64,000 nucleotides of DNA from Corallococcus sp. EGB (GTDB lineage Bacteria > Myxococcota > Myxococcia > Myxococcales > Myxococcaceae), in the NCBI RefSeq assembly GCF_019968905.1, contig NZ_CP079946.1:2604001-2668000 (forward strand), given 5' to 3'. Position numbers and translations under genes: made by a program. Below, piece after piece: positions 35,398 to 62,838 of the stretch. Positions within the stretch are counted from its first letter, which is position 1. Each line of letters starts with the position of its first letter. A model generated the notes under the pieces. That model ran no database searches, was not told where the DNA came from, and saw only the letters and a list, made by a program, of their open reading frames with translations.

Positions 35398-36015
35398 CTA
35401 CATGAGACCGAAGCCCTTCTTGACGAGCAGCCTTCTGGAGGAACTCGCCTTCACGGTGGTGAGTTCGATGGTGTCTTCGTTCACGCCGGTGACGTCCTGC
35501 TTCAACTCACCGACGAACTTGCCGTACTCCCCCGTCTGGGGATTCAAGACCAGGATGGAGACAATCTCGTCGTAGCCGTAGATGTCGAACTTGCACGACA
35601 TCCCGCCCATGCTTCCGCATTTGAGCTTGATCTGGACCGCGGCGTTCATGGCGAAGCTGTCCAGGACACCTCGGGCGGCCAGACAACTGTAGATCTTGAT
35701 GGTGATCGCCTTGTCGGTCAGCCCGTCCGCGAGCACCCGCGCGGCCAGCTCGTGCGGCTGGAGGATTTCCCGGGTGCCATCTTCGGTGGGACCCCGGTCG
35801 ACCATGCGGTTCGGCGTCACGTCGCCATGGCCAATGATGTAGAGCGTGTCGCCGGCCTTCAGGTCGCCGAGCGGCTTGTCGGGGCCGTGCCGCACCCGCA
35901 CCAGCTCCTTGGTCCAACCCCGTGCCTTCTCTGCCTGGATCCACCTGTCGATGAGGTCTTCGATGCAGTCGCTCTTGAAGGGATTGTAGAGAAACACTCT
36001 GGTCATGCGCGCCAT
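35398..36015 (-). CDS. Possible clan-CD-like (caspase/C80-type) protein
   Basis: 205 aa from ATG 36015 with AAGG upstream. No signal peptide. Two motifs stand out: LYIIGHGDVTPNRMV, a strand ending in His-Gly, and about 55 residues later ITIKIYSCLAARG, a strand ending in Ser-Cys. That His-Gly / strand-Cys spacing is the hallmark of clan CD cysteine peptidases (caspases, CHAT, C80 self-processing domains). The Cys-rich segment KCGSMGGMSCKF follows. Family membership is a by-eye inference. It is divergent from 36123. Confidence 0.55.
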   Translation of the reverse strand: MARMTRVFLYNPFKSDCIEDLIDRWIQAEKARGWTKELVRVRHGPDKPLGDLKAGDTLYIIGHGDVTPNRMVDRGPTEDGTREILQPHELAARVLADGLTDKAITIKIYSCLAARGVLDSFAMNAAVQIKLKCGSMGGMSCKFDIYGYDEIVSILVLNPQTGEYGKFVGELKQDVTGVNEDTIELTTVKASSSRRLLVKKGFGLM

Positions 36016-39963: not shown

Positions 39964-41757
39964 CTATCGAGCCTGCCCCTCGAGCGTGAGCCCGCCGCCG
40001 TGCACGGCGCCGTACGCGTGCGCGGGGTGGATGACAGGCTCCTCCAGGGGCGCGGGCCGCATCAGGCCTGCCCCCAGGAGCGCACCCTCGAGCGAGCCGT
40101 GCATCCGCTTCTCGAGCAGGTGCTGCGTGAGTGGTTCGAGCACGGTCTCCAGATGGGGCGGCACCTTCACCAGCGCCAGGTGCGAGCCTCGCACGGCGAG
40201 GAACTCCGCCAGGTACTGGAGCGTCGCCACACCGGCGGCGTCCACGAGCGGCACCCGCGACAGGTCGATGACCACGAGCTTCGCCCAGGGCGGGCCGTCG
40301 ACGAGGTCGTAGAGCTTGAGGTGGTTGATGAACAGGATGGGCCCGTCCACGCGCGCGACCATGAGGTCCAGCGCCTCGGGGGTGTGGGGCGCTTCCGCGG
40401 GGGGCACGTGCAGGCCCGGCTGCAGCCGCGATGCATCCGTCACCCGCTGCACCTCCAGCCGCAGGGCGCCATGGCGCCGCACGTAGAGGATGCTCGCCAG
40501 CGCGAGCCCCGCCCCGATGCCGGCGAACACGTTGAACACCGCAATGCCCAGCGCGGTGACGAGCACCACGCCCAACGTCGACTTGGACTGATTCCACATG
40601 GCAACAAGGCCCTCCAGGTTGAGCAGACGCACTCCCACGACGAGCAGGATGGCGGTGAGTGCGGCAATGGGGATGCGCGCCACCAGCGGCGCGAGCAGCG
40701 CCATGGCCACGAAGAGCCACAGGGCATGCAGGACAGAGGCGGCGCGGGTGCGCGCGCCCGCTTGGATGGACGCGCTGGCGCGCACGATGGCGCCCATCAC
40801 CGGGAAGCCGCCGAACACTCCGGCCGCGATGTTGGCCAGCCCCTGCGCGATCAGGTCCTGGTCCAGGTCACTGTGCGTGCGCGCACCCGTGAGCGCATCG
40901 AGCGAGCTCGTCGCGAGCAGCGAGCCGAGCGACGCCAGCAGCGCGAGACCGAAGGCCGCCGGCAGGAGTCCCGCGAGGTGCACGCCCTCGAAGGACGGCA
41001 GCGTCGGCATGGGCAGCGAGCGCGGCAGGGCGCCCACCGCGTCGTAGCCCGCGCCGAGCGAGACCATGAGCACGGTGCCGATCGTCAGCCCCACGAGCAC
41101 CGCGGGGATGCGCTTGTGCACCCGGGGCAGGGCCACCATGGCCAGCGCCGTGAGCGCTCCGGCCGCGACCCCGAGCCAGCCCACGTGTTCGCCCCAGGTG
41201 CGCCGCAGCACGAGCGCCACGGCGTTCGCGTGCGTGTCCTCCACCGCGAACAGCCTCGGCAGCTGCGTGTTGAGCAGCAGGAGGCCAATGCCCACCGTGA
41301 AGCCCATCACCACCGGCCGGGGGATGAGCCGCGCGAACCGCCCGGCGCGCACGAGCCCCAGCGCCACCTGCATGGCACCCGCGAGCACCGTCGCGATGGC
41401 GAGGCCCGCGGCCCCATGCGCCGCCACGATGGCCGCGGCCAGCGGCAGCAGCGCCGCCTCGGGGCCCGTGACCTGATAGCGACTGCCACTGAGCAGCCCG
41501 CCGATGATGCCCGCCACCACGCCGGAGACGAGCCCCACGCTCGCGGGCAGCCCCGCCGCGGTGGCGAGCGCGACATTGAGGGGAAGTGCCACGCACGCCA
41601 CGCTGAGGCCGGCGGCCGCGTCGGCTGGCAGGCTGCTGGGCTGCACCATCTCGCGCCAGCTTTGGAGGAGCTCGCCCGCACGCCGGGTCGAGAAAGGTCG
41701 CTTGGAGAGAGCGGTCGTCGAATGCATGACGCCGGCGTCTTTCAGGCGCCGTGCCAT
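39964..41757 (-). CDS. SulP family anion transporter with STAS domain
   Basis: 597 aa from ATG 41757; ATG 41727 (MHSTTALS) is an alternative, and neither has a strong ribosome-binding site. It has about twelve transmembrane segments with the SulP signature region (ASVGLVSGVVAGIIGGLL, GSRYQVTGPEAALLPL) and GGFPVMGAIVRASASIQAGA. A C-terminal STAS domain (KLVVIDLSRVPLVDAAGVA) lies near residues 470-540. Substrates of the family include sulfate, bicarbonate and dicarboxylates; none can be singled out. Divergent from the two-component system at 41901. Confidence 0.93.
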   Translation of the reverse strand: MARRLKDAGVMHSTTALSKRPFSTRRAGELLQSWREMVQPSSLPADAAAGLSVACVALPLNVALATAAGLPASVGLVSGVVAGIIGGLLSGSRYQVTGPEAALLPLAAAIVAAHGAAGLAIATVLAGAMQVALGLVRAGRFARLIPRPVVMGFTVGIGLLLLNTQLPRLFAVEDTHANAVALVLRRTWGEHVGWLGVAAGALTALAMVALPRVHKRIPAVLVGLTIGTVLMVSLGAGYDAVGALPRSLPMPTLPSFEGVHLAGLLPAAFGLALLASLGSLLATSSLDALTGARTHSDLDQDLIAQGLANIAAGVFGGFPVMGAIVRASASIQAGARTRAASVLHALWLFVAMALLAPLVARIPIAALTAILLVVGVRLLNLEGLVAMWNQSKSTLGVVLVTALGIAVFNVFAGIGAGLALASILYVRRHGALRLEVQRVTDASRLQPGLHVPPAEAPHTPEALDLMVARVDGPILFINHLKLYDLVDGPPWAKLVVIDLSRVPLVDAAGVATLQYLAEFLAVRGSHLALVKVPPHLETVLEPLTQHLLEKRMHGSLEGALLGAGLMRPAPLEEPVIHPAHAYGAVHGGGLTLEGQAR

Positions 41758-41812
41758 GCGTTGTTTCAGAGGGAAACTCGCCCCCGCTGTCGGTCCATCC
41801 CTCCAGCGCCCC

Positions 41813-41830
41813 TGTCGGCTCGGACCGACA
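41813..41830. promoter_or_regulatory. TGTC-N10-GACA palindrome, GlrR-type enhancer site candidate
   Basis: TGTCGG, 6 bp and CCGACA form a perfect palindrome that reads TGTC-N10-GACA. That is the form known for upstream sites bound by GlrR in enterobacteria. More copies of the half-site lie at 41788-41793 (TGTCGG) and 41840-41845 (CCGACA). It sits between the SulP gene and a GlrK/GlrR-like two-component system. No sigma-54 -24/-12 promoter was confidently found beside it. Confidence 0.55.
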
Positions 41831-41900
41831 CTGTTGGGGCCGACAGACGGCCGTGTGAAGTGACGGGCCGCGCGCGCAGGCGCGGGTTAGATTGCGCGCC

Positions 41901-43397
41901 ATGTTGGTGCTTCGACTGCGCGCACGGCTCCTGTTGTCCTACGCGGTGGTCACCGCACTGCTGGTGGCGGCGTTCTCACAGATGGCCGTGGGCCTCATGC
42001 GCACCCACGACCTGGTGGCTAGCGTGGGCCAGCAGGAGCTCGCCTCCTTCGAGCGAGAACAGCGTGTGTACGTCGCGGCCTGGGCGCTCGAGCTGGCGGT
42101 GCGGCGCGGAGTGGTGGCCTGCGAACAGCGTGACAGCAGCGCGCCCACCGTGCACCGCGCTGTCGCCAGCGCGCGCCAGGATCTCCAGACCGCGCTCGGC
42201 GCCGGCGCGGAGCAGCTCGATGCGGGCTTCCGCGCGAGCGCCCAGGACTATGTGCAGTACGCCCTGCAACTGGAGCAGGCCGGCACCTGTGAGTCGATGC
42301 TGTCGTTTCCCCTGAGGGAGCGGCGGCTGCAACTGGATGAGGTCCTCACCACGGTGTGGTCCGAGCGCACGCGGGACATGCGCCTGGCCATCCAGACGAA
42401 GGAGGACCACGCACGCGCCATCGGCTCGGCGGCGCTGCGCTCCGGTGGGCTCTTTGGCCTCCTGGGCATCCTCGCCGCGGGAGCGCTCGCCTTCGGGCAG
42501 GCGCGCGCGGTGTCGAACTCGGTGGCGCTGCTCTCCACGCACGCGCGCCGCATTGGCCAGGGTGACTTCAGCCCGCTGCCGCCATTGCGCGGGCCCGAGG
42601 AGCTGCGCGCGCTCTCGCTGGACCTGGACCGCATGCGTGGGCGCCTGGCGGAGTTGGATCAGCTCAAGAGCGCGTTCGTGGCCTCGGTGTCCCACGACCT
42701 GCGCACGCCGTTGGCCCGCGTGCGCGAGGCCCTCTCGCTCCTGGGCGATGGCAGCACGGGCCCCCTGACGCCGCAGCAGGCCCGCGTGGTGAAGCTCGCG
42801 CAGGCCGCGTGCGAGCGCGAGATCCGCATGGTGACCTCCGTGTTGGATTTGTCGCGCGTGCAGTCCGGCCAGCCGCTGCAGCGCAACGCCGGCGCCTCGG
42901 TGGAGCAGATTGTCCAGAACGTCCTTCAGGACCTCGCCTTCGAAGCGGATGAGCGCAAGGTCCAGCTGGTGTACGACGCGGCCGCGAAGCCCGTGCGCGC
43001 GCCCATGGACACCGCCCTGGTCGAGCGCGCCCTGTCCAACCTGGTGAGCAACGCCATCGCTGTCTCCAGCGCGGGCAAGACCGTGCGCATCGCGTGTGAG
43101 CTGGTGAGCCGCAAGCGCCCTGGCGCCCCAGGCCCCGTGTCCGCGGTCCAGCTGTCCGTCACGGACCAGGGCCCCGGCGTGCCCGCGCACGCGCGCGAGT
43201 GGATCTTCCGGCCCTTCGCGAGCCTCGAGGTCGGCGGGCGCCGCAGCACGGGGCTGGGCCTCGCCATCGCGCGCGAGATGATCACCGCGCACGGAGGGGA
43301 GCTGTCGCTCGCGGACACTCCCGGGCCTGGAGCCACCTTCACCTTCTGGATTCCCCTGGAAGACCCCGCGACCCCTGGAGGCCGCCTTGACGCCTGA
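41901..43397 (+). CDS. Sensor histidine kinase, GlrK/QseE-like
   Basis: 498 aa from ATG 41901. Two transmembrane segments (LLLSYAVVTALLVAAFS; GLFGLLGILAAGALAFG) flank a helical sensor region of about 150 residues. A HAMP linker follows, then HisKA with the phospho-acceptor His265 in SVSHDLRTPLARV and an HATPase_c domain (NLVSNAIAVS, DQGPGVP, GLGLAIAREM). This layout is that of GlrK/QseE kinases. Its 3' end overlaps the regulator gene, so the two proteins are made together. Confidence 0.95.
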   Translation: MLVLRLRARLLLSYAVVTALLVAAFSQMAVGLMRTHDLVASVGQQELASFEREQRVYVAAWALELAVRRGVVACEQRDSSAPTVHRAVASARQDLQTALGAGAEQLDAGFRASAQDYVQYALQLEQAGTCESMLSFPLRERRLQLDEVLTTVWSERTRDMRLAIQTKEDHARAIGSAALRSGGLFGLLGILAAGALAFGQARAVSNSVALLSTHARRIGQGDFSPLPPLRGPEELRALSLDLDRMRGRLAELDQLKSAFVASVSHDLRTPLARVREALSLLGDGSTGPLTPQQARVVKLAQAACEREIRMVTSVLDLSRVQSGQPLQRNAGASVEQIVQNVLQDLAFEADERKVQLVYDAAAKPVRAPMDTALVERALSNLVSNAIAVSSAGKTVRIACELVSRKRPGAPGPVSAVQLSVTDQGPGVPAHAREWIFRPFASLEVGGRRSTGLGLAIAREMITAHGGELSLADTPGPGATFTFWIPLEDPATPGGRLDA

Positions 43398-44814
43398 GCC
43401 CACCGTCCTGCAGCCCCATGTGCTCCTGGTGGATGATGACCTCCAGCTCGCGGAGCTCATGTCCATGCGGATGACTTCACGCGGCTACCGCGTGACCGTG
43501 GAGGGCGAGGGCAAGGCCGCCCTGCGCAGGCTCGCGCAGGAGCGCGTGGACGCCATGGTGCTCGACCTGCGCCTGGAGGACATGGATGGCATGGACGTGC
43601 TTCGGGCCGCGCGGCAGCGTGCTCCCGAGCTGTCCGTCATCATGCTCACCGCGCACGGCTCCATCGAAACCGCGGTGCAGGCCATGCAGGAGGGAGCCTA
43701 TGGCTTTCTCACCAAGCCGTTTCACGACCACGAGCTCATGCAGAAGCTCACGCACGCGCTCGAGCGCTCGCGTCTGCGCCGGGAGGTGGCCGAGCTGCGG
43801 AGGCGCATGGGGGAGGACGGCGAACCCCTGCTCCTGGGCATCAGTGAGGCCATCTCGCGCGTGCGCGAGGTGATTGCCCGCATTGCCCCCACCGACGCCA
43901 CCGTCCTGCTCACGGGGGAGAGCGGCACCGGCAAGGAGCTGGCGGCGCGGATGCTCCACGTGCTCTCGCGGCGCAGCACGGGGCGCTTCGTCGCCGTCAA
44001 CTGCGGCGCCCTCCCGCCCGAGCTGCTGGAGAGCGAGCTGTTCGGCCACGTGAAGGGCGCGTTCTCCGGGGCCGTGCGCGAGCGCGAAGGCCTGTTTGGC
44101 GCCGCCAACGGCGGCACGCTGTTCCTGGATGAGATTGGCGAGGCGTCCCCGTCCGTGCAGGTGAAGCTCTTGCGCGTGCTGCAGGAGCAGCGGCTCACGC
44201 GCGTGGGCGCGGACGTGGAGGAGGCCGTGGACGTGCGGGTGGTCGCCGCCACCAATCGGGACCTCGCGGAAGAGGTGGCCGCGAAGCGCTTCCGTCAGGA
44301 CCTCTACTTCCGGCTGCACGTGGTGCCCATCGAGCTGCCGCCCTTGCGTGAGCGGCTCGAGGACATCCCCCTGCTCGCGCAGCTCTTCCTGGAGCGCACG
44401 GCGAACCGCTATGGCCTGCGTCCGCCGCGCCTCGCGCCCGCGACGGTGGAGCTGTTGCAGCGCTATGGCTGGCCCGGCAACGTCCGGGAGCTCATCCACG
44501 AGATGGAGGCCGCGGTGCTGCTGGCCGGCACGGACGAGCTTCAGCCGCGGCATGTGCCTCGCCTGGGGCAGGCGCTGGAGCGGCCCCCCACCGGGAGCGC
44601 GCAGCTGCCAGGCGTTCCTGGCGGGACAGAGGCCCTGCCCTCGCTGCGCGAGGCCCGTGATGCCTTCGAGCGCGCCTACCTCGCGGAGGCCATGCGCCGC
44701 AGCGGCGGCAGTGTCAGCGCCGCGGCGCGAATGGCCGGGCGCAACCGGAGCGACTTCTACGACCTGCTCAAGCGGCATGGCCTGTCCGCCGCTGACTTCA
44801 AGGGAACAGCCTAG
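43387..44814 (+). CDS. Sigma-54-dependent response regulator, GlrR/QseF-like
   Basis: 475 aa from TTG 43387, which overlaps the kinase gene by 11 bp. The receiver domain has phospho-acceptor Asp60 (MVLDLRLEDMDG). The AAA+ domain has Walker A GESGTGKE, the sigma-54 contact loop GAFSGA (Ser for the usual Thr) and Walker B FLDEIGE, then GWPGNVREL. A Fis-type helix-turn-helix (SVSAAARMAGRNRSDFYDLL) ends the protein. It should activate sigma-54 promoters; a candidate site is at 41813. Confidence 0.95.
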   Translation: MTPEPTVLQPHVLLVDDDLQLAELMSMRMTSRGYRVTVEGEGKAALRRLAQERVDAMVLDLRLEDMDGMDVLRAARQRAPELSVIMLTAHGSIETAVQAMQEGAYGFLTKPFHDHELMQKLTHALERSRLRREVAELRRRMGEDGEPLLLGISEAISRVREVIARIAPTDATVLLTGESGTGKELAARMLHVLSRRSTGRFVAVNCGALPPELLESELFGHVKGAFSGAVREREGLFGAANGGTLFLDEIGEASPSVQVKLLRVLQEQRLTRVGADVEEAVDVRVVAATNRDLAEEVAAKRFRQDLYFRLHVVPIELPPLRERLEDIPLLAQLFLERTANRYGLRPPRLAPATVELLQRYGWPGNVRELIHEMEAAVLLAGTDELQPRHVPRLGQALERPPTGSAQLPGVPGGTEALPSLREARDAFERAYLAEAMRRSGGSVSAAARMAGRNRSDFYDLLKRHGLSAADFKGTA

Positions 44815-49846: not shown

Positions 49847-50161
49847 ATGGCGAAGCAGGTGGAGAAGCCGGAGTGGGCGCGCATCGCGGAGGCCTTTGAG
49901 GCGAGCGGGCAGACGCAGCGGGAGTTCGCGTTGGCGCACGGCATGCGGCTGAGCACGTTGCAGTCGTGGGTGTACCGGCATCGGCGGTCCGCTCCATCGC
50001 GAGCGGAAGCCGTGCGGCTGTTGCCGGTGCGAGTGGCGAGCGCCCCCGCGGCGCCGGAGTCCCTGCTGGAGGTGGTGGCCACGAGCGGAGCGCGGGTGCG
50101 ATTCGCGGTAGGCACCGACGTCGGTTACGTGGCCCGGCTCGTCGCCGCGTTGGGGCGCTGA
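49847..50161 (+). CDS. tnpA: IS66 accessory protein TnpA (copy A)
   Basis: 104 aa from ATG 49847; a longer frame starts at 49802. A helix-turn-helix-like segment (GQTQREFALAHGMRLSTLQ followed by SWVYRHRR) is typical of the small IS66 OrfA/TnpA protein, which is needed with TnpB for full transposition and probably binds the element ends. It ends 4 bp before tnpB. Confidence 0.85.
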   Translation: MAKQVEKPEWARIAEAFEASGQTQREFALAHGMRLSTLQSWVYRHRRSAPSRAEAVRLLPVRVASAPAAPESLLEVVATSGARVRFAVGTDVGYVARLVAALGR

Positions 50162-50165
50162 AGCG

Positions 50166-50531
50166 ATGTTCGCCCTGCCTGCGTCGGTGCGCGTGGTGCT
50201 GGCGATGGAGCCGGTGGACATGCGCAAGTCGATTGACGGCCTCATGGCGCTGGTGCGCACGGCGTGGGGCGAGGACGTCTACTCGGGGCACCTCTTCGCC
50301 TTCGTCTCCAGGCGAGGCGACCGCATCAAGGTGCTGACGTGGAGCCGGGGCGGCTTCGTGCTTCTCTACAAGCGGCTGGAGACGGGCCGCTTCCGGCTGC
50401 CGCCGGTGGACGCGGGCGCGCAGGCAGTGACGCTGGACGCCACGCAGTTGGCGATGCTGCTGGACGGCATCGACGTGGCCCAGGTGAGGCGCCAGCCCGC
50501 CTGGGCACCTCCCGGGCGTACGGGCAGCTGA
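50166..50531 (+). CDS. tnpB: IS66 accessory protein TnpB (copy A)
   Basis: 121 aa. It matches the IS66 Orf2/TnpB family: VVLAMEPVDMRKSIDGLMAL, GHLFAFVSRRGDRIKVLTW and GGFVLLYKRLETGRF. The protein assists TnpC; its biochemical role is not settled. It lies between tnpA and tnpC in the usual order. Confidence 0.95.
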   Translation: MFALPASVRVVLAMEPVDMRKSIDGLMALVRTAWGEDVYSGHLFAFVSRRGDRIKVLTWSRGGFVLLYKRLETGRFRLPPVDAGAQAVTLDATQLAMLLDGIDVAQVRRQPAWAPPGRTGS

Positions 50532-50577
50532 CGTGCCCGGCTCGGGACGCGGCGTGGCGCAGGCGTGTTGAGGTTGG

Positions 50578-52098
50578 GTGCCGCGCGAACTCCCTCAGGA
50601 CCACTTCTGCCCCTGGCGTGAGGAAGCCGAGGAGCTCAAGGCCGAGGTGAGCCGCATTGGCGGGGAGGTGGACGCCCTCAAGGGGCAGCTTGCGGCCCTG
50701 CAGCGCCACGTCTTCGGCAAGAGGGCGGAGAAGCTGCCGACGGTGGCGGCTGAGTTGCGAGGGGACGCGGATTCGACGGCGGCCCAGGCCGAGGCCGCGA
50801 AAGAGAAGCGGCAAGAGAGAGCCGCCCGCAAGGCCGAGGGGGCCCCGGCGCGGGAGATTCGCCACGCGGTGCCGGCCGAGGAGCGCCACTGCCCGGCGTG
50901 CGGCAGCGAGGACTTGAGGCCCCTGGGCAAGGGCAAAACCTCGGTGGTGTACGAGTACGTGCCCGCCCGCTTCGAGAAGCAGGTGCACGTGCAGGAGGTG
51001 CTGGCGTGCGCGTGCGGCCGGGGCGTCGTCACCGCCCCGCCTCCGGCCCGGGTGGTGGACAGGGGCGAGTACGGCCCGGGCTTCCTCTCCCACGTGGTGA
51101 CGTCGAAGTGCGCGGACGCCATGCCGCTGCACCGACTCGCCCAGCGGGTGGAGAGAAGCGGCGTGCCCATGAGTCGCAGCACCCTGACGGACCTCTTCCA
51201 CCAGGCCGCCTCGGTGCTGCTGCCTCTTTCGCAGCACCTCCTGCAGTGCATTGCGTCCGCGGACGTGGTGTGGGCCGACGAGACGCCCATGCGCGTGCTG
51301 GACGTGAAGAAGACACGCCAGGGCTACCTCTGGACTTTCCTCACCCAGACGCCCGAAGGGCAGTGGCTCCTGGGCTACCGCTTCAGCCTCGGCCGGGCCA
51401 GCACGACGCCCAAGGACGTGCTGGGCGGCACCCGGGGCGCCCTCGTCGTGGATGCCTATACCGGCTACAACGCGGTGACGCTGCCCGAAGGGCGCGTCCG
51501 CGTCGGGTGTTGGGCGCATGTGCGGCGCCGCTTCTTCGAGGCGCTCCCCACCGCGCCCGAGGCCCGCGAGGCCTTGGACTTCATTCTGGCCCTCTACCGG
51601 GTGGAGGCGCTGGCCCGCGACGCGGGCGTCGTGCGCACGGACGCGCACCAAGCGCTGCGCCAGCAGCAGAGCCTCCCCGTCCTCTCGGCGCTGCGTGCGT
51701 GGATGGAAGCGCAGACTTCGCGCCATCTGCCCAAGGGGCCCATGGGCCAGGCCCTCTCCTACGCGCTGAAGCAGTGGGACGCCCTGACGCGCTTCTCTTC
51801 CGACGCGCGTCTGCCCTTGGACAACAACCGCTCCGAGGCGGCGCTGCGCAAGGCCGCCCTGGGCCGGAAGAATTTCCTCTTCGTCGGCCACGAGGCCGCA
51901 GGGCAGAACCTCGCCGGCCTCTACGCTCTCGTCGCCACCTGCGAGGCCAACCAGGTCAATCCCGAGGCGTACCTCGCGGATGTCCTGCTGCGGGTGCAGA
52001 CGCACCCGAATGCGCGCATCGGTGAGTTGCTACCTCACGAGTGGAAGCGGCGACGCGCCGCTGACCCGCCCGAGTCACCCCTCCAGCCCAGTCCCTGA
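50578..52098 (+). CDS. tnpC: IS66 transposase TnpC (copy A)
   Basis: 506 aa from GTG 50578. An N-terminal coiled coil (EEAEELKAEVSRIGGEVDAL) is followed by a zinc-finger-like HCPACGSEDL. The DDE core includes ADETPMRVLD and GALVVDAYTGYNAV, and the family C-terminus has RLPLDNNRSEAALRKAALGR followed by KNFLFVGH. This is the catalytic transposase. Length and motifs look intact. Confidence 0.95.
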   Translation: MPRELPQDHFCPWREEAEELKAEVSRIGGEVDALKGQLAALQRHVFGKRAEKLPTVAAELRGDADSTAAQAEAAKEKRQERAARKAEGAPAREIRHAVPAEERHCPACGSEDLRPLGKGKTSVVYEYVPARFEKQVHVQEVLACACGRGVVTAPPPARVVDRGEYGPGFLSHVVTSKCADAMPLHRLAQRVERSGVPMSRSTLTDLFHQAASVLLPLSQHLLQCIASADVVWADETPMRVLDVKKTRQGYLWTFLTQTPEGQWLLGYRFSLGRASTTPKDVLGGTRGALVVDAYTGYNAVTLPEGRVRVGCWAHVRRRFFEALPTAPEAREALDFILALYRVEALARDAGVVRTDAHQALRQQQSLPVLSALRAWMEAQTSRHLPKGPMGQALSYALKQWDALTRFSSDARLPLDNNRSEAALRKAALGRKNFLFVGHEAAGQNLAGLYALVATCEANQVNPEAYLADVLLRVQTHPNARIGELLPHEWKRRRAADPPESPLQPSP

Positions 52099-52181
52099 CC
52101 AACTCGCTCCTCGCGGCGCCCGCTGAGCACGGTCGTGGTCCGTCTTCAATCCTTCCGGCACGTCACTGGCCGGACGGTTAC

Positions 52182-52704
52182 GAAGAGCTCGCGCCATACA
52201 CCGGCCGTAGCCGGTCGCATTGTCGGACGTGCGTGACGGTGTCTCCCACCTGGAACGTGCGTGCCATGAATCAGGAGTCTAGCGGCCCTGGCACATGGAT
52301 CCGCCATGACTTCTCGCGGTCTCCTTGGCTATTCCTCGGGTGCCAGGAATGTGTCCAGCGAAGGCACGTCCTCGAATTCCTTTTGCGGGTCGAGGAGGGG
52401 GGCTGTCGGTCTCCAGGTGTCGTAATCCGAGGGCTCACCCATCACGACCGCGGACTGCTCCTCCTGATGCGGAAGGGCCCGTTGAGGAGTGCGGCATGCC
52501 GAGATGCACACCAGGACGAGAACCGCCCCGGGCGTATGTCGTGACGAGGGGCGGAGCAGGGCGCGGTCAATCATGAGTGAGTTCGATGCGTGTGTTGCGT
52601 CTCGGAGATTCCAACCCAAGACAAGGGGGGGAGATCTTTCATGCGAAGACCGCCCCCCACGGATTCACGACGTGCTGTACCAGCAGCTACGTGCCGCTAC
52701 TGTC
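52182..52704. repeat. Segmental duplication, copy 1
   Basis: This segment right of IS66 copy A is repeated at 63479-64000 with only two differences seen: a silent a/c change in the small lipoprotein gene, and one fewer G in a G-run near 52625. The second copy reaches the window edge, so the real repeat is longer. It includes the small lipoprotein gene and the end of the Cys-rich protein gene. Confidence 0.9.
52329..52574 (-). CDS. Small lipoprotein (duplicated, copy 1)
   Basis: 81 aa from ATG 52574. The lipoprotein signal (PGAVLVLVCISAC) leaves an acidic, Pro-rich mature peptide (GEPSDYDTWRPTAPLLD, EFEDVPSLDTFLAPEE) without a known domain. It is the last gene of a minus-strand run with 52687 and 54082. 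A nearly identical copy is at 63626-63871. Confidence 0.65.
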   Translation of the reverse strand: MIDRALLRPSSRHTPGAVLVLVCISACRTPQRALPHQEEQSAVVMGEPSDYDTWRPTAPLLDPQKEFEDVPSLDTFLAPEE

Positions 52705-54075
52705 GTCACAGCGACAAAATAGATCATTGCATACCAGGACCCCGTTCTGCCCACATGGGAGCCCGCATACTCCGTACGTCGGCGAACATTGGCTGCCGAG
52801 CTGGCAAGTACCGCAGGAGTACATTGTTCCACATCCGTCTGAAACGGAACCACACTGACGGTTTGCGCAGGCTGTCGCTTGTGGAATGGGTTGGCAGGTG
52901 CCACAGACATTGGCGGTCCCGGCTCCGCCGCAGCTGTCCGTGCCGGAGCAGGTGCCACAGGATGTCACCGTCCGGGACTGACCGCAGTTGTCCTGGCCTG
53001 TTACCGAGCCGCAGTTTTTTCCCTGCCGCGAGCAGAACTGGGCGTTGGTTTCGGGCGCGCAACCGCACTGATTGGCGACACCGGAGCCACCGCAGGTCTG
53101 TGGGGCTGTACAGGTGCCGCATGATGCGATGTTGCTCGTGTTTCCACAGATATCCGTGGCCTGGAGGGGGCCGCACTGCGCCGAAACCCTGTGGCAGATC
53201 TCTTCCTCTGACTCGGCAATGCACTCTCTATAGCCACACGTCGCCAAGGGATCGCGTTCGGCCTCCGGAAGGCTGTTCGTAACGAGCTGGCATTGACTTT
53301 CAAGGAGGGTGCTTGGCTCGTCGGACGGCTGTCTCAGTTGGCTCTGCCGCGTGATGGCCTGCTTGTAGAGGTCGATGGCAAGCTTCTTGTTGCCGGTTCG
53401 AGTGGCGAGTTCAGCGCGAGCCGCCAGGCACGCCACAAGGGCTGGCGCCTGCGCAAGGACTGCCTCCGCTTGCGCGGTGTTGTTCTTCTGCTCGTGGTAC
53501 GCGGCAAGTATCAATGCCTGCGAGCACTGTTGGGCGGGAACGGGCGCCTGCGGTGGGTCCAGGATCTCCAGCTTGGTTTGAGCGATGGCCCAGCCCTTCC
53601 AGCTCCCAGGAGTGGATCCTGTGCGGGAATCCAGAAGGAGCTTCAGTTTGTAGGTCCCAGTGGCCAGCAGCGAGGTGGCTTCTGGGGGAAGAATCACGAG
53701 CAACTTTTTCGGACTGCCAGGAGCAATCTGGGTGCTTGCTCCTACCGGCGTCAAGACTTGAAAGGGCCAGGACTGGAGCACTCCTTGTTGGTTCTTGACG
53801 GACAACTTGACGAGCCGTGTCCATTTTCCGGAGGGAACGGAAATCTGGACGGGCTGAACCGTGGCGATGCCTGCCGCCACGACCTCGCCTGCGGGCAAAC
53901 CAAAATAGAGCTGGAGGATGAGGGGCGAACCTCTAAAGGTGACGTTCGGGGGGGTGCCGAAAACGCCAATTCCCAGCTCAGGTTCGATGACTGTCTGGGC
54001 TTGGGCAGTGAATCCCTGAAGTGCGAAACAAAAGAGGAGCACCTGCAGCAGTGACGTCGATTTTCGAGTGTTCAT
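52687..54075 (-). CDS. Secreted Cys-rich protein
   Basis: 462 aa with a Sec signal peptide (LLQVLLFCFALQGFTAQAQ). The first 170 residues are beta-rich (VTFRGSPLILQLYFGLP). A short TPR-like helical stretch follows (YHEQKNNTAQAEAVLAQAPA, KLAIDLYKQAIT). From about residue 270 come many Cys in CGTC-type repeats (IASCGTCTAPQTCGGSG, SCGTCSGTDSCGGAG). The stop is 7 bp after the upstream metalloprotease stop region, so they are one operon. Lower GC than the neighbours suggests foreign origin. The function is unknown. Confidence 0.75.
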   Translation of the reverse strand: MNTRKSTSLLQVLLFCFALQGFTAQAQTVIEPELGIGVFGTPPNVTFRGSPLILQLYFGLPAGEVVAAGIATVQPVQISVPSGKWTRLVKLSVKNQQGVLQSWPFQVLTPVGASTQIAPGSPKKLLVILPPEATSLLATGTYKLKLLLDSRTGSTPGSWKGWAIAQTKLEILDPPQAPVPAQQCSQALILAAYHEQKNNTAQAEAVLAQAPALVACLAARAELATRTGNKKLAIDLYKQAITRQSQLRQPSDEPSTLLESQCQLVTNSLPEAERDPLATCGYRECIAESEEEICHRVSAQCGPLQATDICGNTSNIASCGTCTAPQTCGGSGVANQCGCAPETNAQFCSRQGKNCGSVTGQDNCGQSRTVTSCGTCSGTDSCGGAGTANVCGTCQPIPQATACANRQCGSVSDGCGTMYSCGTCQLGSQCSPTYGVCGLPCGQNGVLVCNDLFCRCDDSSGT

Positions 54076-54081
54076 GGTGCC

Positions 54082-56415
54082 TTACCTTTGGGGAGCGGCA
54101 ATGCGGTCATTGACGAGAATCTGATGCATGCAGTCGCCTCGGCTGGCACTTCCATGCCGCGAGCGCGCCCCCGCATTGAAGGTTACGCCTGTTTTTCTCG
54201 AGCAGAGCTGCTTGCCGGGTTGTTCTCGGTTCCGGATCCAGAGTCGCTTGACGCTGGTTGCTGTGTCAGTCCCCTCGCGAACAAGTGTCGCCCCGGTGTA
54301 ACGCATGTAGCAATCCTCGAAGCCACTGTATTGGTTTCCCGAGGTCGGGGAGAAAGTGACCTTGTCGAACCTTCCAGCCTGGCGATAATCCGGTGATGGA
54401 ACTAGTTCCACGAACGTATCCGCATCATAGAGTTCGGTGATTCGGATCGGCTCCACTTTCCCCTTTGCATCCTTCGCCTGGATGAATGCGTCATAAGCCC
54501 TTACGATAAATTCTTCGGAGACCGCTGCGTCGCCATGATGGTAGATGTTGACGGTGTGTCCAAGCTCGTGTGCGACAACCGACGCGATCTCCAGTGTGTC
54601 GCTGTCGAGGGTCTTTCTTGATAGCTCAACGACCGAATGGTCCTTGGGCGTGCCGTTGGCTGAAGAGTTCTTCCGGAATGTCATGGACTGCCCAGTCGGG
54701 GTGTCGACATCCTCATCGGAAGGGGGTCTCAAGACGACAAGGTGCTGATCGACAAGATGTCTGCCATCGGGCGCCCTGTTGAAGTTGATCACGCGGTGGT
54801 CGAGCTTGAAGTCACCCCGCCCCTCTGTCGGAGGGAACTCGCCGTCATCCAGTTGGTGGACACGCAGATTTGTGGTGGAGGCGAACAGTGTGATGCCTGG
54901 GTCTGCTATGTCCTTGAGCGCCATGTCCACAGAGAGGAAGTAATCCTTGGCTTTCGGATTCCCGCTGGTGTGTTTGCCCTTTTCCTGGAAGCCACGGTAT
55001 TCCTCATACAGTGTCAGGCCATCTCCTCTGTTTCCGTCGCCGAGTGGAATGTCCTCGTTGTCATCGGTGTCTTCCAGGTTCTCGACCTGATATTGCTGCT
55101 TCCAGCTGTCGGCGATGAAGGAGTCGCTCTTGCGCTTGGGGATACGCAATGCGCTTTCATTGGGTGCGGAGGTGACCACCCCATGGATGATACGTCCGTC
55201 AGGCAGCGTCGCATCCACCGTCATCTCGCCGTAGGCGCCCCAGTCGAATGAATCAACATACACAGTGGCGGAGTCATACAAGCTGTCCGGTGTCCGTCCT
55301 TCCTGGAGGGTCTCGCCGCCTGATGTCGCGTCCGTGATGTCGAGCGCTGTTTCCTGGGTGGGGCGCAACTCAAGGTCGCGTTCGTTATACTGCCCCCCGA
55401 CCAGTGGCCAGTTGCTCGACACCCCGGGGACTGTTGAGGACTTGAGCCGGAAGACAATGTTCTTGGCCTGGAGAGCTTCGGGTCCCAGGAGTCTGGCTGT
55501 CACCTCGAGTGAGTTGATGATATCTGAGCTTGCATCCTGCGACAGGGACTGGGGCGGGCCAGAACTGAAGGCGACGGCAACACCATCGAGAGGTGGGGCG
55601 TCGAGCATCTCGTCGGCTTCATCCACCGAGGGAGCGGAAGGCCGCCATTCGGCGTAGTTGTCGGGAGGCTCGATGAGGAGCTTGACCTCGTTGAGGTCCA
55701 TTGGCGAAAGCTGGAACGAGAAGTTGTAGGGGATCTTCTGGCTCTCTGAGCCACAAGGGGCAGCCTGGTCCTCCGTGACGTTCACGCTGAGTTCCAGTCC
55801 GCTCGCCGGAATGGGCCATGGCGTGGTTCCGAGTCCTGGGTACCTCAGCGCCGGTTTATAAACGGTCGAGGTGTGTGTTTCGACCGAGGACTCGGAGAGC
55901 GTGGTGATGAAGGCACTGCTGGTGTTGATGTCATGCCCATAGAGGAACCGGAAGTTTGGGCCCTCGTAGGCAGTTGCTTCTGGCGTCATGAACAATAATG
56001 CGAGTGTGTTGATTTTTTGGGAAGGGAGCGTCCAGGTCGTCCGATGCCAGAGCTGAGTGGTGATGTTTGTTTCCTGGATGCATTTGATCGTAACTGTTCC
56101 CTGGAACCGGCCCGTCCATGCGTAGAGAGAGCCGGCGTCCTGTGTCAGATACGCGATCCCCGCCCCCTGGTGGGTACATTCAATGGTGTAGGTTGACCCC
56201 CCTTCGGTGAAGGTCCGTTTGGCTGCGGCCGATGAGAACCTCACCGTGCCACCGTAGACCTTGACGTTCTCGAAGCGCGTGTTGCCCAGGGCAGAGGTCT
56301 TGCTTCGGAGCTGAAGCGCGTCGTCATTCGAAGTCGATGGGCGGCAGGCTGTGATTGCCAGTAATGCGAAGACTGCAGATATCTGCCGCAGAGTGGGCGA
56401 TGAAGTGCGGGCCAT
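54082..56415 (-). CDS. HExxH metalloprotease-like lipoprotein
   Basis: 777 aa. The lipoprotein signal ends in ITAC. The long N-terminal two thirds are beta-rich with no domain I recognise. The zinc motif HELGHTVNIYHH lies near residue 622 (HExxHxxxxxH). After it VEPIRITELYDAD and a Cys-containing tail follow. It is probably a surface or secreted zincin. It heads the minus-strand operon with 52687 and 52329 and has lower GC and less biased codon use than the flanking chromosome, which suggests recent transfer. Confidence 0.8.
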   Translation of the reverse strand: MARTSSPTLRQISAVFALLAITACRPSTSNDDALQLRSKTSALGNTRFENVKVYGGTVRFSSAAAKRTFTEGGSTYTIECTHQGAGIAYLTQDAGSLYAWTGRFQGTVTIKCIQETNITTQLWHRTTWTLPSQKINTLALLFMTPEATAYEGPNFRFLYGHDINTSSAFITTLSESSVETHTSTVYKPALRYPGLGTTPWPIPASGLELSVNVTEDQAAPCGSESQKIPYNFSFQLSPMDLNEVKLLIEPPDNYAEWRPSAPSVDEADEMLDAPPLDGVAVAFSSGPPQSLSQDASSDIINSLEVTARLLGPEALQAKNIVFRLKSSTVPGVSSNWPLVGGQYNERDLELRPTQETALDITDATSGGETLQEGRTPDSLYDSATVYVDSFDWGAYGEMTVDATLPDGRIIHGVVTSAPNESALRIPKRKSDSFIADSWKQQYQVENLEDTDDNEDIPLGDGNRGDGLTLYEEYRGFQEKGKHTSGNPKAKDYFLSVDMALKDIADPGITLFASTTNLRVHQLDDGEFPPTEGRGDFKLDHRVINFNRAPDGRHLVDQHLVVLRPPSDEDVDTPTGQSMTFRKNSSANGTPKDHSVVELSRKTLDSDTLEIASVVAHELGHTVNIYHHGDAAVSEEFIVRAYDAFIQAKDAKGKVEPIRITELYDADTFVELVPSPDYRQAGRFDKVTFSPTSGNQYSGFEDCYMRYTGATLVREGTDTATSVKRLWIRNREQPGKQLCSRKTGVTFNAGARSRHGSASRGDCMHQILVNDRIAAPQR

Positions 56416-56562
56416 GTCTGGTGAGTGCTTTCGGATCTGGTGATGAGGGAACTGAACGCGACGGGCGTCCCCGGCCTATGTTTAACATAGTACGCCGGGG
56501 TGGGATGCCAGTTCCGTGCCAGGTTTCCGTGACGTAGGGCCGGGCTTGCTGGAAAGAGGAAA

Positions 56563-56591
56563 GGGGCGGCCCTCCCATGTGGAGGCCCCCC
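56563..56591 (-). terminator. Terminator-like hairpin
   Basis: An imperfect GC hairpin (cctcc/ggagg core extended by G/C pairs) is followed on the minus strand by tttcctcttt. It lies just past the end of the MYXO-CTERM gene fragment. Confidence 0.5.
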
Positions 56592-56616
56592 TCGTTACTT
56601 CAGGACGTCAGGACGA

Positions 56617-57141
56617 CTACGCCGATTTGCGACGGCGCAGCATGCCCATGGCCGCGAAGAGCGCCATTAGCGGAGCCATGCCGCCCACAGAGCCAACGGC
56701 GGACGAGCAGCCGCCGCCCTCTTCCTCGACCTTCGGGACGGTGACCTTCACCTCGGCGGTGCTGGTGGCACCGGCCGCGTCCTTCACCGTCACGGTGAAG
56801 GTGTGGGTCTCCGCCGTGGTCTTCTTCGCTGGCGTGAAGCTGGCTTCGGCGGAGTTGGCGCCCGACAGCGTCGTCGCCGCGCCACCCGTCTGCACCCAGG
56901 CGTTTGTCAGCGCCTCGTTGTCCGGATCCGTGGACGTCGAGGCGTCCAGCTTCACCTGCTCACCGCCGCGAGCACCGGAGATGAGCCGGGCCTTGGCGAC
57001 CGGCGCCTGGTTCACGTTCGTCACCATGACCGAGTAGACGAACTGACCGGCCGTCGCGCCGTCCGCGTCCGTCACCACCAGTCTGAAAGCCAGGGCCGTG
57101 TTGCCCTGCACCTGCGGCGCGGTGAAGCCCAGCTCCCTCAA
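56617..57141 (-). pseudogene. 3' fragment of a PKD/REJ-type MYXO-CTERM surface protein
   Basis: 174 codons with no signal peptide: a beta-sandwich of PKD/cadherin type (ALAFRLVVTDADGATAGQF, QVKLDASTSTDPDNEALTN, HTFTVTVKDAAGATSTAEV). It ends in a Gly/Cys motif (EEEGGGCSS), a hydrophobic helix and the basic end LRRRKSA, i.e. a MYXO-CTERM sorting tail. The missing N-terminus lies where the M20 repeat region begins, so this is the surviving 3' end of a larger surface-protein gene. Confidence 0.65.
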
Positions 57142-57195
57142 GCAGGTGCGGAGGTGGCGAGCGCGGGGCTTGAGGCAGCGGCCAGGAAAGAGCGG

Positions 57196-57509
57196 ATGGC
57201 GGAGGCCCGGCGCCCGCGTGCTCGACAGCGCGGGAGTTCACCAGGAGGAACCATGTCGGCTGCATCACGGGTGATGGCGGGGCAGGGCGACATCCGAACG
57301 TGGCAGGAGGATTTTTACCGAGAGCTACATCAGCATCCGGAGCTCTCCCACCACGAGAACGCGACAGCGCGGAAGGTGGCCGAGCGGCTCAAGCAGGCGG
57401 GCTCTCAGGTGCACTCTGGAGTCGGCGGCACCGGCGTCGTCGGGGTGTTGCGCAATGGGGACGGCCCCACGGTGCTGCTCCGGGCGGACATGGATGCGCT
57501 GCCCGTCCG
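57196..57509 (+). repeat. Direct repeat, M20 segment copy 2
   Basis: 314 bp matching 49380-49693. This copy keeps the ATG (57253) and continues past the point where copy 1 breaks off. Confidence 0.85.
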
Positions 57510-57713
57510 TGAGACGACCGGGCTGCCCTATGCCAGCACCGTCACCACGACCAATGCCGACGGCGACGCGGTTCCGGTGTCGCATGCCTGTGGCCACGAC
57601 ATGCACGTCGCGTGTCTGCTCGGAGCGGCCCACCTGTTGGCGGCGGGGCACCGAACACTGGAACGGCCGGGTCGTCACGCTGTTCCGGCCGGCCGAGGAG
57701 ACCGGAGACGGAG
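57253..57713 (+). pseudogene. M20 amidohydrolase, 5' remnant copy 2
   Basis: From ATG 57253 (GGAGGA upstream) the frame encodes an M20 amidohydrolase N-terminus up to the metal-binding SHACGHDMHVACLL. Near 57660 a frameshift moves the family-like sequence (WNGRVVTLFRPAEETGDG) into another frame. At 57714 the IS21-family element cuts the gene. It is therefore frameshifted and truncated. Confidence 0.85.
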
Positions 57714-57863
57714 TGTCGTAGCTCGGCGTAACAGGTCCTCCGGAGTTCGGCGAACCCGGTCGGGGTGAGTTCGGCCAAACCGGTCCGCACCGGTTCGGCC
57801 AACCCGGTCCCCCGGGCGTCCCGCCGACAGGCCACGCTGGCTTCCCTTGGAAAGGGAAGTGGC

Positions 57864-59456
57864 GTGAGTAACCGGAGAGTGGAGATGGACTGGCTGCAGG
57901 AATTGGTGCGGTTGCACCGCCTGGGCACGCCCGCGCGGCAAGTGGCCCGGGTGCTGCGCATGGGCGTGAACGTGGAGCGCAGCTATCGGCGCGTGCTGGA
58001 AGCGGCGGGGCTGCTGCGGGGCGACGTGCAGGTGCTGCCCGAGCTCGAGGTGCTCAAGGCCGCAGTGCTGGCGGGGCGGCCCGCGGCCCCGCCAGCGCCC
58101 CAGCAAACGTCCAGCCTGGAGGCACACCGCGCCCAGGTGGAAGCGTGGGTGGCGAAGGGACTGCAGCCACAGGCCATCTTCACCCGGTTGCAGATGGAGG
58201 CGGGGGTGCCGGCAGGCAGCCTCTCGGCCGTCAAGCGCCTGGTGGGCAGCGTGCGTCGGGCGCAGGGCGTGAGTGAAGAGGACGTCGCCATCCCCGTGGA
58301 GACGGCCCCAGGCGAAGTCGCGCAGGTGGACTTCGGTGAAGTGGGCCGATTGTACGACGCAGACGCAGGGACTCTGCGTCGCGCCTGGGTGTTCGTCAGG
58401 GTGCTCGGCTATAGCCGCCACCTCTTCGCCACGGTGGTTTTCGACCAGCGTGTGGAGACGTGGCTGCGCTGCCACGAGGCCGCCTTCACGTACTTTGGCG
58501 GGGTGCCCCGGTGCGTGGTGCCCGACAACCTCAAGGCGGCGGTGGTGCGCGCTGCTTTCGGGGTGGACGGGGAGCGGGCCCTGCAGCGCAGCTACCGCGC
58601 GCTGGCGCGCCACTACGGCTTCATCGTCGACCCGGCCCCTCCTCGCGCCCCTGAGAAGAAAGGCAAGGTGGAGGCGGGCGTGCGCTACGTGAAAGGCAAC
58701 TTCTTCGCCGGGAGGGCCGGAGAGGACGCGCGCGAGTGCGAGGCCGCACTGCAGCGCTGGCTGCGGGACGTGGCGTCGGTGCGCGTGCACGGCACGACGG
58801 GGCGTCAGCCGCGCCTCCTCTTCCAGCAGGCCGAAGCCGAGGCGCTGCGTGCGCTGCCGGCGGCCGCGTGGGCGCCCGAGGTGTGGCACGAGGCCCGCGT
58901 GCACCGCGACGCCCACGTCATGTACGGCCGACGGCTGTACTCAGTGCCGTGGCGTCTCATCGGCCAGCGCGTCTGGCTGTGCGTCACGGCCTACGACGTG
59001 CGCGTGTACGCCCAGGACGAGCGCGTGGCCACCCACCCGCTGCGCGGCGAGGGCCACCGCAGCACCGTGGAGTCCCACCTGCCCGAGGCGCGCGCGGCCC
59101 TGCGCCACCGCAGCCGCGGCCACTGGGAGACACGGGCGGCCCGGCTGGGCCCGCACACCGAGGCGTACGTGCGCGCCGTCTTCGACGCCGATGACGTCCT
59201 CAGCCAGCTGCGCTGCGTGCAGGCCATGGTGGTGCACCTGGAGGGCTTCCCGCGCGAGCGGGCCGAGGCCGCGTGCCGCCGGGCGCTGCACTTCGGCAAC
59301 CTGCGCTACCAGGGCCTCAAGGACATCCTGCGCCGCGGCCTGGACTTGCAGCCGTTGCCCCAGGACGGGCACCTGGCCCTCGCCACGCCCGCCGCCACGG
59401 CTGCGTCGCCGGCGCCCCGCTACGCGCGCGACGTGCGCACGCTGCTGCTGCGTTAG
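57864..59456 (+). CDS. istA: IS21-family transposase IstA
   Basis: 530 aa from GTG 57864 (AAGGGAAG upstream); ATG 57885 (MDWLQELV) is an alternative. An N-terminal helix-turn-helix (LHRLGTPARQVARVLRMGVN) is followed by the DDE integrase core: VAQVDFGEVG (Asp), CVVPDNLKAAV (Asp) and PEKKGKVEAGVRYVKG (Glu). Intact in length. IstA cuts and joins the element ends, with IstB as its ATPase helper. Confidence 0.92.
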   Translation: MSNRRVEMDWLQELVRLHRLGTPARQVARVLRMGVNVERSYRRVLEAAGLLRGDVQVLPELEVLKAAVLAGRPAAPPAPQQTSSLEAHRAQVEAWVAKGLQPQAIFTRLQMEAGVPAGSLSAVKRLVGSVRRAQGVSEEDVAIPVETAPGEVAQVDFGEVGRLYDADAGTLRRAWVFVRVLGYSRHLFATVVFDQRVETWLRCHEAAFTYFGGVPRCVVPDNLKAAVVRAAFGVDGERALQRSYRALARHYGFIVDPAPPRAPEKKGKVEAGVRYVKGNFFAGRAGEDARECEAALQRWLRDVASVRVHGTTGRQPRLLFQQAEAEALRALPAAAWAPEVWHEARVHRDAHVMYGRRLYSVPWRLIGQRVWLCVTAYDVRVYAQDERVATHPLRGEGHRSTVESHLPEARAALRHRSRGHWETRAARLGPHTEAYVRAVFDADDVLSQLRCVQAMVVHLEGFPRERAEAACRRALHFGNLRYQGLKDILRRGLDLQPLPQDGHLALATPAATAASPAPRYARDVRTLLLR

Positions 59457-59511
59457 CGCCCCCTCCTCGCTGTCCCCGCAGTCCCACCCCGCTCAAGGAG
59501 TGTCCCGCCGC

Positions 59512-60294
59512 ATGAGTACCTATGACGAGCTCGTCCCCGTGCTGAAGAAGCTGCGCCTGTCCGGGCTGCTGCAGTCCCTCGAGGTGCGCTGCCGCGAGGC
59601 GGCCGACGCCAACCTGTCGCTGACGGAATTCCTCTACCGACTCCTGGCCGACGAGGTGGAGCGCCGCGACGGCAAGCAATTGGACGTGCGCATGCGCCGT
59701 GCCGCCTTCGAGCGGCCCAGCACCCTGGAGGACTTCGACTTCTCCTTCAACACCTCCGTCCCTCGCACCAAGGTGCTGGAGCTGGGCACCTGCGCCTTTG
59801 TCGAGCGGCAAGAGAATGTGCTGGTGGTGGGCCCGGCGGGCGTCGGCAAGAGTCACCTCGCCCAGGCGCTGGGGCAGCGAGCTTGCCGCGCCGGCCACGC
59901 CGTCCTCTACGTGAGCGCCCACGACATGCTCACGCAGTTGCGAGCCTCACGCGCCGACAACGGCTACGAGCGTCGCCTCCTGCGCTTCACCACGCCAGCC
60001 CTGCTCATCGTCGACGACCTCGGACTGCGGCCCCTTACGGGTGAGGAGGGCATCGACTTGTACGAGATTGTCCGCCGTCGCTACGAGCGCGCGGCCACTT
60101 GCATCACCTCCAATCGCGCCTTGGAGGAGTGGCCGCCGCTGTTTGGTGACGCACTGCTGGCCAGCGCCGCCATGGACCGGTTGCTGCACCACTCCCATGT
60201 CCTCACCATCGAGGGTGACAGCTACCGTAACCCTCCGCCCGCCAAGCGCACCCGCGCTCCGCGCGCGGCCCAGGTCGAGACTGCCGCACGCTGA
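59512..60294 (+). CDS. istB: IS21-family helper ATPase IstB
   Basis: 260 aa from ATG 59512, with AAGGAG upstream. A DnaC/IstB AAA+ ATPase: N-terminal helices (LKKLRLSGLLQSLEVRCREA), Walker A VGPAGVGKSH, Walker B LLIVDDLGLRPL, sensor ITSNRALEEWP and the C-terminal AAMDRLLHHSHVLTIEGDSY. It loads on DNA and directs IstA. The stop lies about 100 bp before the start of IS66 copy B. Confidence 0.95.
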   Translation: MSTYDELVPVLKKLRLSGLLQSLEVRCREAADANLSLTEFLYRLLADEVERRDGKQLDVRMRRAAFERPSTLEDFDFSFNTSVPRTKVLELGTCAFVERQENVLVVGPAGVGKSHLAQALGQRACRAGHAVLYVSAHDMLTQLRASRADNGYERRLLRFTTPALLIVDDLGLRPLTGEEGIDLYEIVRRRYERAATCITSNRALEEWPPLFGDALLASAAMDRLLHHSHVLTIEGDSYRNPPPAKRTRAPRAAQVETAAR

Positions 60295-60390
60295 CACCTG
60301 GCGCAGCCCCTGCCGGACCGGTTTGGCCGAACCCGCGCGGCCCACTCCGTCGCAATTCCTGGGCGCTTCACGTCCGGACCTGGTTGGCCG

Positions 60391-60398
60391 AACCGAAC
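60391..60398. repeat. 8-bp target site duplication, left
   Basis: aaccgaac directly left of IS66 copy B; the same 8 bp is at 62804-62811. Eight bp is the usual IS66 duplication length. Confidence 0.9.
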
Positions 60399-60468
60399 GT
60401 AACCGTCCGGCCAACGACGTGCCGTGAGGGATTGCCGGGGTAGCGGGGCGCGGCGGACGCTGCTGGGC

Positions 60469-60783: not shown

Positions 60784-60787
60784 AGCG

Positions 60788-61153: not shown

Positions 61154-61199
61154 CGTGCCCGGCTCGGGACGCGGCGTGGCGCAGGCGTGTTGAGGTTGG

Positions 61200-62811: not shown

Positions 62812-62838
62812 AGCGACCTGCTTGGCCGAGCCTTGACA

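Follow-up and report, generated by a model that had tools for sequence, protein, structure and literature searches.

A conserved three-site array of GlrR-type sequences beside a candidate sigma-54 promoter in the divergent region of a SulP gene and a GlrK/GlrR-like pair of myxobacteria

The window analysed here, a stretch of 64,000 nucleotides from Corallococcus sp. EGB (contig NZ_CP079946.1, positions 2,604,001 to 2,668,000), contains a gene for a SulP-family anion transporter and, divergent from it, genes for a sensor histidine kinase and an NtrC-family response regulator (Table 1). The ATG at 41727 was taken as the start of SulP because the one upstream (41757) is not conserved. The scores of SulP against the NCBIfam models for DauA, sulP and BicA were under their cut-offs. 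Farther along the window, a search of positions 50000-64000 in 300-nt blocks revealed direct repeats with 100% identity (50000-51843 with 60622-62465, and 52105-52404 with 63402-63701), the copies being 10,622 or 11,297 bases apart, with one of the blocks occurring a third time at 62839-63138 (93%); these repeats suggest a sizeable recent duplication.

Table 1. Positions of the genes and candidate regulatory features of the locus, in window coordinates
Feature	Position	Strand	Basis and remarks
SulP-family anion transporter with STAS domain, likely target	39964..41727	-	Pfam Sulfate_transp 3.5e-59, STAS 1.1e-7
-24/-12-like element TGGCACG-N4-CTGAA (GG-N10-GA), putative	41741..41756	-	10/12 consensus letters; TGGCACG fully matched
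SulP-proximal candidate activator site	41788..41805	.	here retains the TGTCGGTC half only; ~41 bp from GG
Middle candidate activator site TGTCGG-N6-CCGACA	41813..41830	.	exact TGTC-N10-GACA; centre ~66 bp from -24 GG
SulP-distal candidate activator site TGTTGG-N6-CAGACG	41832..41849	.	2 mismatches in the window; centre ~85 bp from GG
Highly conserved block GGGTTAGATTGCGCGCC immediately upstream of the kinase ATG	41884..41900	+	98% column identity, 13 Corallococcus loci
GlrK-like sensor histidine kinase (HAMP, HisKA, HATPase)	41901..43397	+	domain matches; profile match to E. coli GlrK
GlrR-like NtrC-family response regulator (receiver, sigma-54 AAA+, GAFSGA loop, Fis-type HTH)	43387..44814	+	domains; GlrR homology

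The preliminary description had taken the two genes downstream of the divergent region for a GlrK/GlrR-like pair, and our comparisons agreed. By profile comparison the kinase matched E. coli GlrK over most of its length, including the periplasmic region (probability 99.8), and by BLAST over the C-terminal half (28%); two of its cysteines aligned with GlrK and were invariant in nine homologues. The best NCBIfam model for the regulator was that of GlrR (PRK15115), with 424 bits against an equivalog cut-off of 763, and the protein aligned with GlrR of E. coli, a stress regulator, at 45% identity across 462 columns; judged from these matches, it is a GlrR-like relative and not GlrR itself. A receiver, a sigma-54 AAA+ domain and a Fis-type HTH with a GlrR-type recognition sequence were all found in it, the recognition region AARMAGRNR..FY.LL.RH.L being common to the regulator and E. 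coli GlrR. The sigma-54 contact loop reads GAFSGA in Corallococcus; the motif was not found in L130, and every other SulP-linked locus in which it could be located has GAFTGA. Elsewhere in the same genome (L078/L114; G000:C1:4350126 and 4352293), the C-terminus of a protein resembled the regulator HTH (45% over 47 residues, E 5.5e-5), and a beta-carbonic anhydrase gene lies approximately 1.7 kb away.

Between the divergent genes, a TGTC-N10-GACA palindrome had been reported, with the half-sites TGTCGG at 41788 and CCGACA at 41840. All three are present; the palindrome reads TGTCGG-CTCGGA-CCGACA, and it matches the published GlrR/QseF consensus, given as TGTN12ACA (PMC6075780) or TGTCN10GACA (PMC8745638). 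A further half-site that had escaped the earlier list, TGTTGG, was found at 41832, and the array consists of three sites with the palindrome in the middle rather than of one palindrome plus loose half-sites. In 13 Corallococcus loci, the half-site columns of the middle site were 97% identical; the figure for its own spacer was 81% and that for the remaining intergenic region 85%. This site was exact in nine of the 13 loci, the other four having a right half that reads CCAACA and hence no exact match. Identity at 41788-41795, within the SulP-proximal site, was 100%, and the SulP-distal site carried one mismatch in 11 of the 13. Sites with zero or one mismatch occur at equal distance, at both the proximal and the distal position, in loci of Archangium (g8), of g16 and of Myxococcus/Pyxidicoccus (as which we took genus g24, which includes Pyxidicoccus fallax). 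Within Corallococcus, the columns of the elements were 94-100% identical compared with 85% elsewhere (p 2e-10, for columns that are not independent). The window holds a second exact TGTC-N10-GACA at 35583-35600, beneath overlapping ORFs, which is probably due to chance.

The comparison of orthologous loci that the preliminary description had called for showed that the palindrome is conserved: of 35 distinct loci, drawn from several genera of myxobacteria, 34 had TGTC-N10-GACA with at most one mismatch and 27 had the exact form. These loci derive from 36 rows, L129 and L190 being one locus; the kinase is visible in 34 of them, and the contig of L134 ends before the kinase. Only the SulP locus of G040 (L022/L133) lacked such a site and had two-mismatch sites only. 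Since a one-mismatch site was reached in 8-13% of shuffled regions, such sites are cheap, and it is the exact sites and their spacing that carry weight. In other genera the kinase is only approximately 40% identical, yet the sites stand at comparable places. The kinase was present in 13 of 16 Corallococcus genomes and in 9 of the 27 from genus g24; of 59 genomes sampled across the family, 17 had it, and these same 17 had the regulator. Two records call for comment on their own account: in L189 (G076:C1:2730559-2731734, g24) the kinase match spans residues 1-392 of 484, and the gene may be truncated or frameshifted; L136, titled Comamonas sp. KCTC 72670, carries a myxobacterial locus, so that the title looks wrong or the assembly mixed.

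On the SulP side of the array lies the putative sigma-54 promoter. Taken alone, the element is not significant, as the window contained six -24/-12-like matches with up to two mismatches against 6.8 expected. At the corresponding place it was the top consensus match in 13 ranked loci, including L132 (a SulP without the linked pair), and it was tied with another position in L130. In most loci its form is YGGCAYG-N5-TG(A/T)A. Because the search demanded them, the -24 GG and the 10-bp spacing are present in all 36 rows; the genera compared share the GG-N10-G spacing and the -24 GGC. The -12 dinucleotide was GA or GT in 34 of 35 loci and the canonical GC in L135 only, in a search that required A after the dinucleotide and excluded GG, whereas the ranking search required just G followed by A, C or T. 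Among characterised sigma-54 promoters of M. xanthus, one-base changes in GC or GG have been accepted for asgE, spi and nla6 (PMC7910581), and the nla6 promoter, which was analysed by mutation, is tabulated as TGGTGCG-N4-GTGTT (PMC9765219).

In pattern counts summed over eight genomes, TGGCAYG-N4-YTGCW occurred 161 times against 140 for the control and TGGCAYG-N4-YTGAW 47 times against 9; the GC form was thus hardly enriched and the GA form approximately fivefold over its reversed control, although the reversed GA pattern contains TAG-like words and codon bias may explain the difference. The same pattern counts showed that TGGCACGGTCCTTGAT recurs in seven of the eight genomes. In 31 of 36 rows, 14-18 nt separate the first ATG from the -12 position; in the remaining five the distance is 3 or 10 nt. 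In those 31 rows the predicted start of SulP transcription is 2-6 nt before the first ATG, and the SulP transcript would therefore be nearly leaderless.

The spacing of the array ties it to one of the two genes. Sites occur near 40, 65 and 85 bp from the -24 GG in Corallococcus, Archangium, g16 and g24, although one of the three positions is degenerate or beyond the two-mismatch cut in most of these lineages; the loci of Myxococcus vastator and M. dinghuensis have sites at 41 and 86 bp. The SulP-distal site keeps a distance of 83-86 bp to the -24 GG in all four lineages (96 in L018), whereas its distance to the kinase start ranges from approximately -70 in Corallococcus through -92 in L007 and -107 to -110 in Archangium and g16 to -131 to -133 in L020 and L019. 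The near-constant distance to the GG, set against a distance to the kinase start of anywhere between about 70 and 133 bp, argues that the array belongs to SulP. With candidate promoter elements compared on the SulP side, SulP appears the likelier target of the array than the kinase. The spacing has exceptions: in Sorangium the sites lie approximately 61 and 104 bp from the GG instead of 40 and 85, the array of L018 is displaced by about 10 bp, the sites of L135 stand at 82, 63 and 50, and those of the carbonic anhydrase locus of G040 at 75 and 52 bp.

The array also keeps company with the gene pair. SulP was the divergent neighbour in 31 of the 34 kinase loci tested (L020 and L184 being one locus); the other neighbours were a beta-carbonic anhydrase gene in L021 and MgtE genes in L010 and L011. 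When the species-genome collection was scanned by pattern, starting from a SulP alignment, 45 SulP loci were retrieved, 16 of them with the kinase and regulator in the fetched flank. Exact sites occurred upstream of SulP in 11 of these 16 and in none of the 29 without the pair in the fetched flank (Fisher 4e-7), and sites with at most one mismatch in 15 of 16 and 6 of 29, respectively (Fisher 3e-6). Both values ignore kinship and overstate the independence of the loci, which are related: seven of the 16 linked loci are Corallococcus or its MAG. For at least eight of the 29 unlinked loci, the sequence available upstream of SulP is shorter than 3 kb, so that the pair could have been cut off; L134, which is among them and has three one-mismatch sites, may well belong to the pair-linked group. 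Seven further unlinked SulP genes (L068-L074) had no exact site, and one of them had a one-mismatch site. A Deltaproteobacteria MAG (L132) has a CGGCACG-N4-TTGTT element with a one-mismatch site 56 bp off and no kinase in the 3.3 kb upstream of SulP.

The three Corallococcus genomes without the kinase are also without this SulP (E 1e-60). In G038 and G046, where the pair adjoins mgtE and no SulP is linked (G046 has a 37% identical SulP elsewhere in the genome), no site was found within 330 bp, and the regulator loop reads GAFTAA or GAFTDA instead of GAFTGA (L049, L048). In these two genomes the sigma-54 contact appears to have decayed along with the target. Both belong to a genus in which G015 and G030 keep SulP and the sites, and the loss may accordingly be one event.

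We consider it likely, on the strength of the conservation, the spacing, the co-occurrence and the GlrR homology, that the GlrR-like regulator, once phosphorylated, acts through the three sites to activate SulP from a sigma-54 promoter. Counting against this reading are the GA or GT at -12, the deviant spacing in Sorangium and a few other loci, the element and one-mismatch site of the unlinked L132, the four Corallococcus loci with CCAACA in the middle site, the very short predicted SulP leader and the GAFSGA loop of Corallococcus. In this scheme the GlrK-like kinase would phosphorylate the regulator, which would bind the upstream activating array as dimers or as a higher oligomer and, via its GAFS/TGA loop, contact sigma-54 RNA polymerase at the -24/-12 element some 40-86 bp away; the outcome would be divergent transcription of the SulP transporter. 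We infer the binding, the use of the GA/GT -12 box by sigma-54, the activation and the direction of control. The preliminary description had proposed an enhancer for SulP and/or the regulators themselves, a view that the GlrK/GlrR-like pair, the consensus match and the conservation support, with SulP as the likelier of the two targets.

The sites might instead serve mainly to autoregulate the kinase-regulator operon by activating or repressing a housekeeping promoter, SulP being secondary or unregulated. The array lies approximately 50-115 bp upstream of the kinase ATG, and the kinase-side block at 41884-41900 is conserved as strongly as the sites; however, it is the distance to the SulP-side GG that is constant, the regulator has a sigma-54 ATPase domain, and where SulP is missing the sites are absent and the loop is degenerate, and we regard this alternative as rather unlikely. 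A sigma-70 consensus scan of the intergenic region gave no match, so that the promoter type of the block can only be surmised; it may be a housekeeping -10 box belonging to a leaderless transcript. A separate housekeeping promoter probably serves the kinase-regulator operon, and, since the block is so highly conserved in Corallococcus, autoregulation may be added to the control of SulP.

Less probable still is that the SulP-side element is a housekeeping or ECF-type leaderless promoter and that the regulator acts otherwise than through sigma-54. The missing GC hallmark at -12 and the short distance to the first ATG would fit such a promoter, but the conserved GG-N10-G spacing and -24 GGC, the GC of the divergent L135 and the changes tolerated in asgE, spi and nla6 of M. 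xanthus (PMC7910581, PMC9765219) speak for sigma-54. Palindromic operators are common and the regulator was assigned to this one from sequence, so the sites could in principle be the operator of an unrelated transcription factor; the GlrR consensus match, the adjoining GlrR homologue with the same recognition sequence and the co-occurrence make this very unlikely. Chance in GC-rich DNA would account for the weak statistics of a single site in the window but hardly for conservation and spacing across genera, and we consider it negligible.

Those single-site statistics deserve to be given. The window contained two exact TGTC-N10-GACA against 0.78 expected, and two or more were found in 16 of 100 shuffles, so that the palindrome by itself is weak evidence. 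The Corallococcus sp. EGB genome contained 142, compared with 52 for the reversed pattern; however, the window shuffles scaled to 9.43 Mb predict approximately 115, and any genome-wide enrichment is therefore slight or absent. The longer TGTCGG-N6-CCGACA occurred five times in this genome and its reversed control not at all. The other four places each lie within a stop-free frame of more than 500 codons, which suggests coding sequence, although such frames are weak evidence in GC-rich DNA. What raises the site above chance, as far as these comparisons go, is its local, position-specific conservation across genera.

No wider regulon emerged from the counts of TGTCGG-N6-CCGACA in 11 genomes (1-6 per genome, against 0-3 for the reversed control), because the numbers were similar where the kinase was not found (one in G049, two in G029, four in G058). 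Genome-wide, the motif as counted marks no large regulon, and the kinase, regulator and SulP probably form a one-locus circuit. In 28 of 30 carbonic anhydrase loci from 12 genomes, among them both loci of the Corallococcus sp. EGB genome, the 600 bp upstream of the match contained no exact site; the two with an exact site, the kinase-divergent one (G040:C67) and L076, are both in G040.

Carbonic anhydrase is of interest for the transported ion. Its gene lies near SulP in two g16 loci (L053, L064) and in place of SulP in a paralogous locus (L059), which points to bicarbonate. In can2-sulP of Acidithiobacillus ferrooxidans, likewise, SulP adjoins a beta-carbonic anhydrase and bicarbonate transport has been predicted (PMC6458275). 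That paper places STAS-bearing SulPs, such as the one described here, in clades not linked to can2, and in its passages on can2-sulP no GlrKR-like pair is described. Bicarbonate as the substrate of SulP is a lead only: counted against it are the STAS link, the scarcity of exact sites at carbonic anhydrase loci noted above, and the outcome of a search of the window and of L119-L163, neither of which yielded a relative of the L059 carbonic anhydrase.

The locus shares several features with GlrK/GlrR (QseE/QseF) of Enterobacteriaceae, namely the recognition sequence, a kinase alignable over most of its length and the two aligned cysteines. E. coli glmY, our positive control, has three exact TGTC-N10-GACA upstream and a TGGCAC...CTGC promoter; three sites upstream of a sigma-54-type promoter, putative in the myxobacterial locus, and a position beside the regulator locus are common to both systems. 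They differ in the target, which is the small RNA gene glmY in E. coli and probably the divergent SulP gene here, and in gene order, as qseG lies between the two E. coli genes whereas those described here overlap (43387 < 43397) and have no qseG. The E. coli sites are also approximately 100, 163 and 196 bp from the -24 GG instead of about 40-86 bp, and the GA/GT -12 box and the GAFSGA loop of Corallococcus set the myxobacterial system apart. The Nla and NmpR NtrC-like activators of myxobacteria are likewise response-regulator enhancer-binding proteins acting on sigma-54 promoters, and some of their target promoters have imperfect -12 or -24 hallmarks (PMC7910581, PMC9765219, PMC6211767); the half-sites given for Nla28, CT(C/G)CG(C/G)AG, are unlike TGTC/GACA.

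GlrR-type regulators, their sites and SulP transporters are already known; what marks this system as a variant is the way they are combined, together with the compact array, the GA/GT -12 box and the missing qseG, and no report of a myxobacterial link between GlrR and SulP was found in the open-access literature searched. As a tentative extension, in which we place little confidence, the locus could be a self-contained, patchily distributed myxobacterial module in which a GlrKR-type pair serves inorganic-carbon (bicarbonate/CO2 or pH) homeostasis. The pair would control SulP, or a beta-carbonic anhydrase at the one paralogous locus, by way of an enhancer of three sites, and the sigma-54 promoter, with its lineage-fixed, non-canonical GA/GT -12 box, would give a near-leaderless mRNA.

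Myxobacteria, predators that live in soil, have many NtrC-like regulators, and for one of these our analysis provides a sequence-level prediction of the regulator, its sites, its promoter and its target. It also suggests that gammaproteobacteria and myxobacteria have retained a common GlrR DNA specificity even as the regulated target shifted from a small RNA to an ion transporter. How strict the hallmarks of sigma-54 are could be tested directly on the conserved GA/GT -12 box and on the degenerate loop of the target-less genomes.
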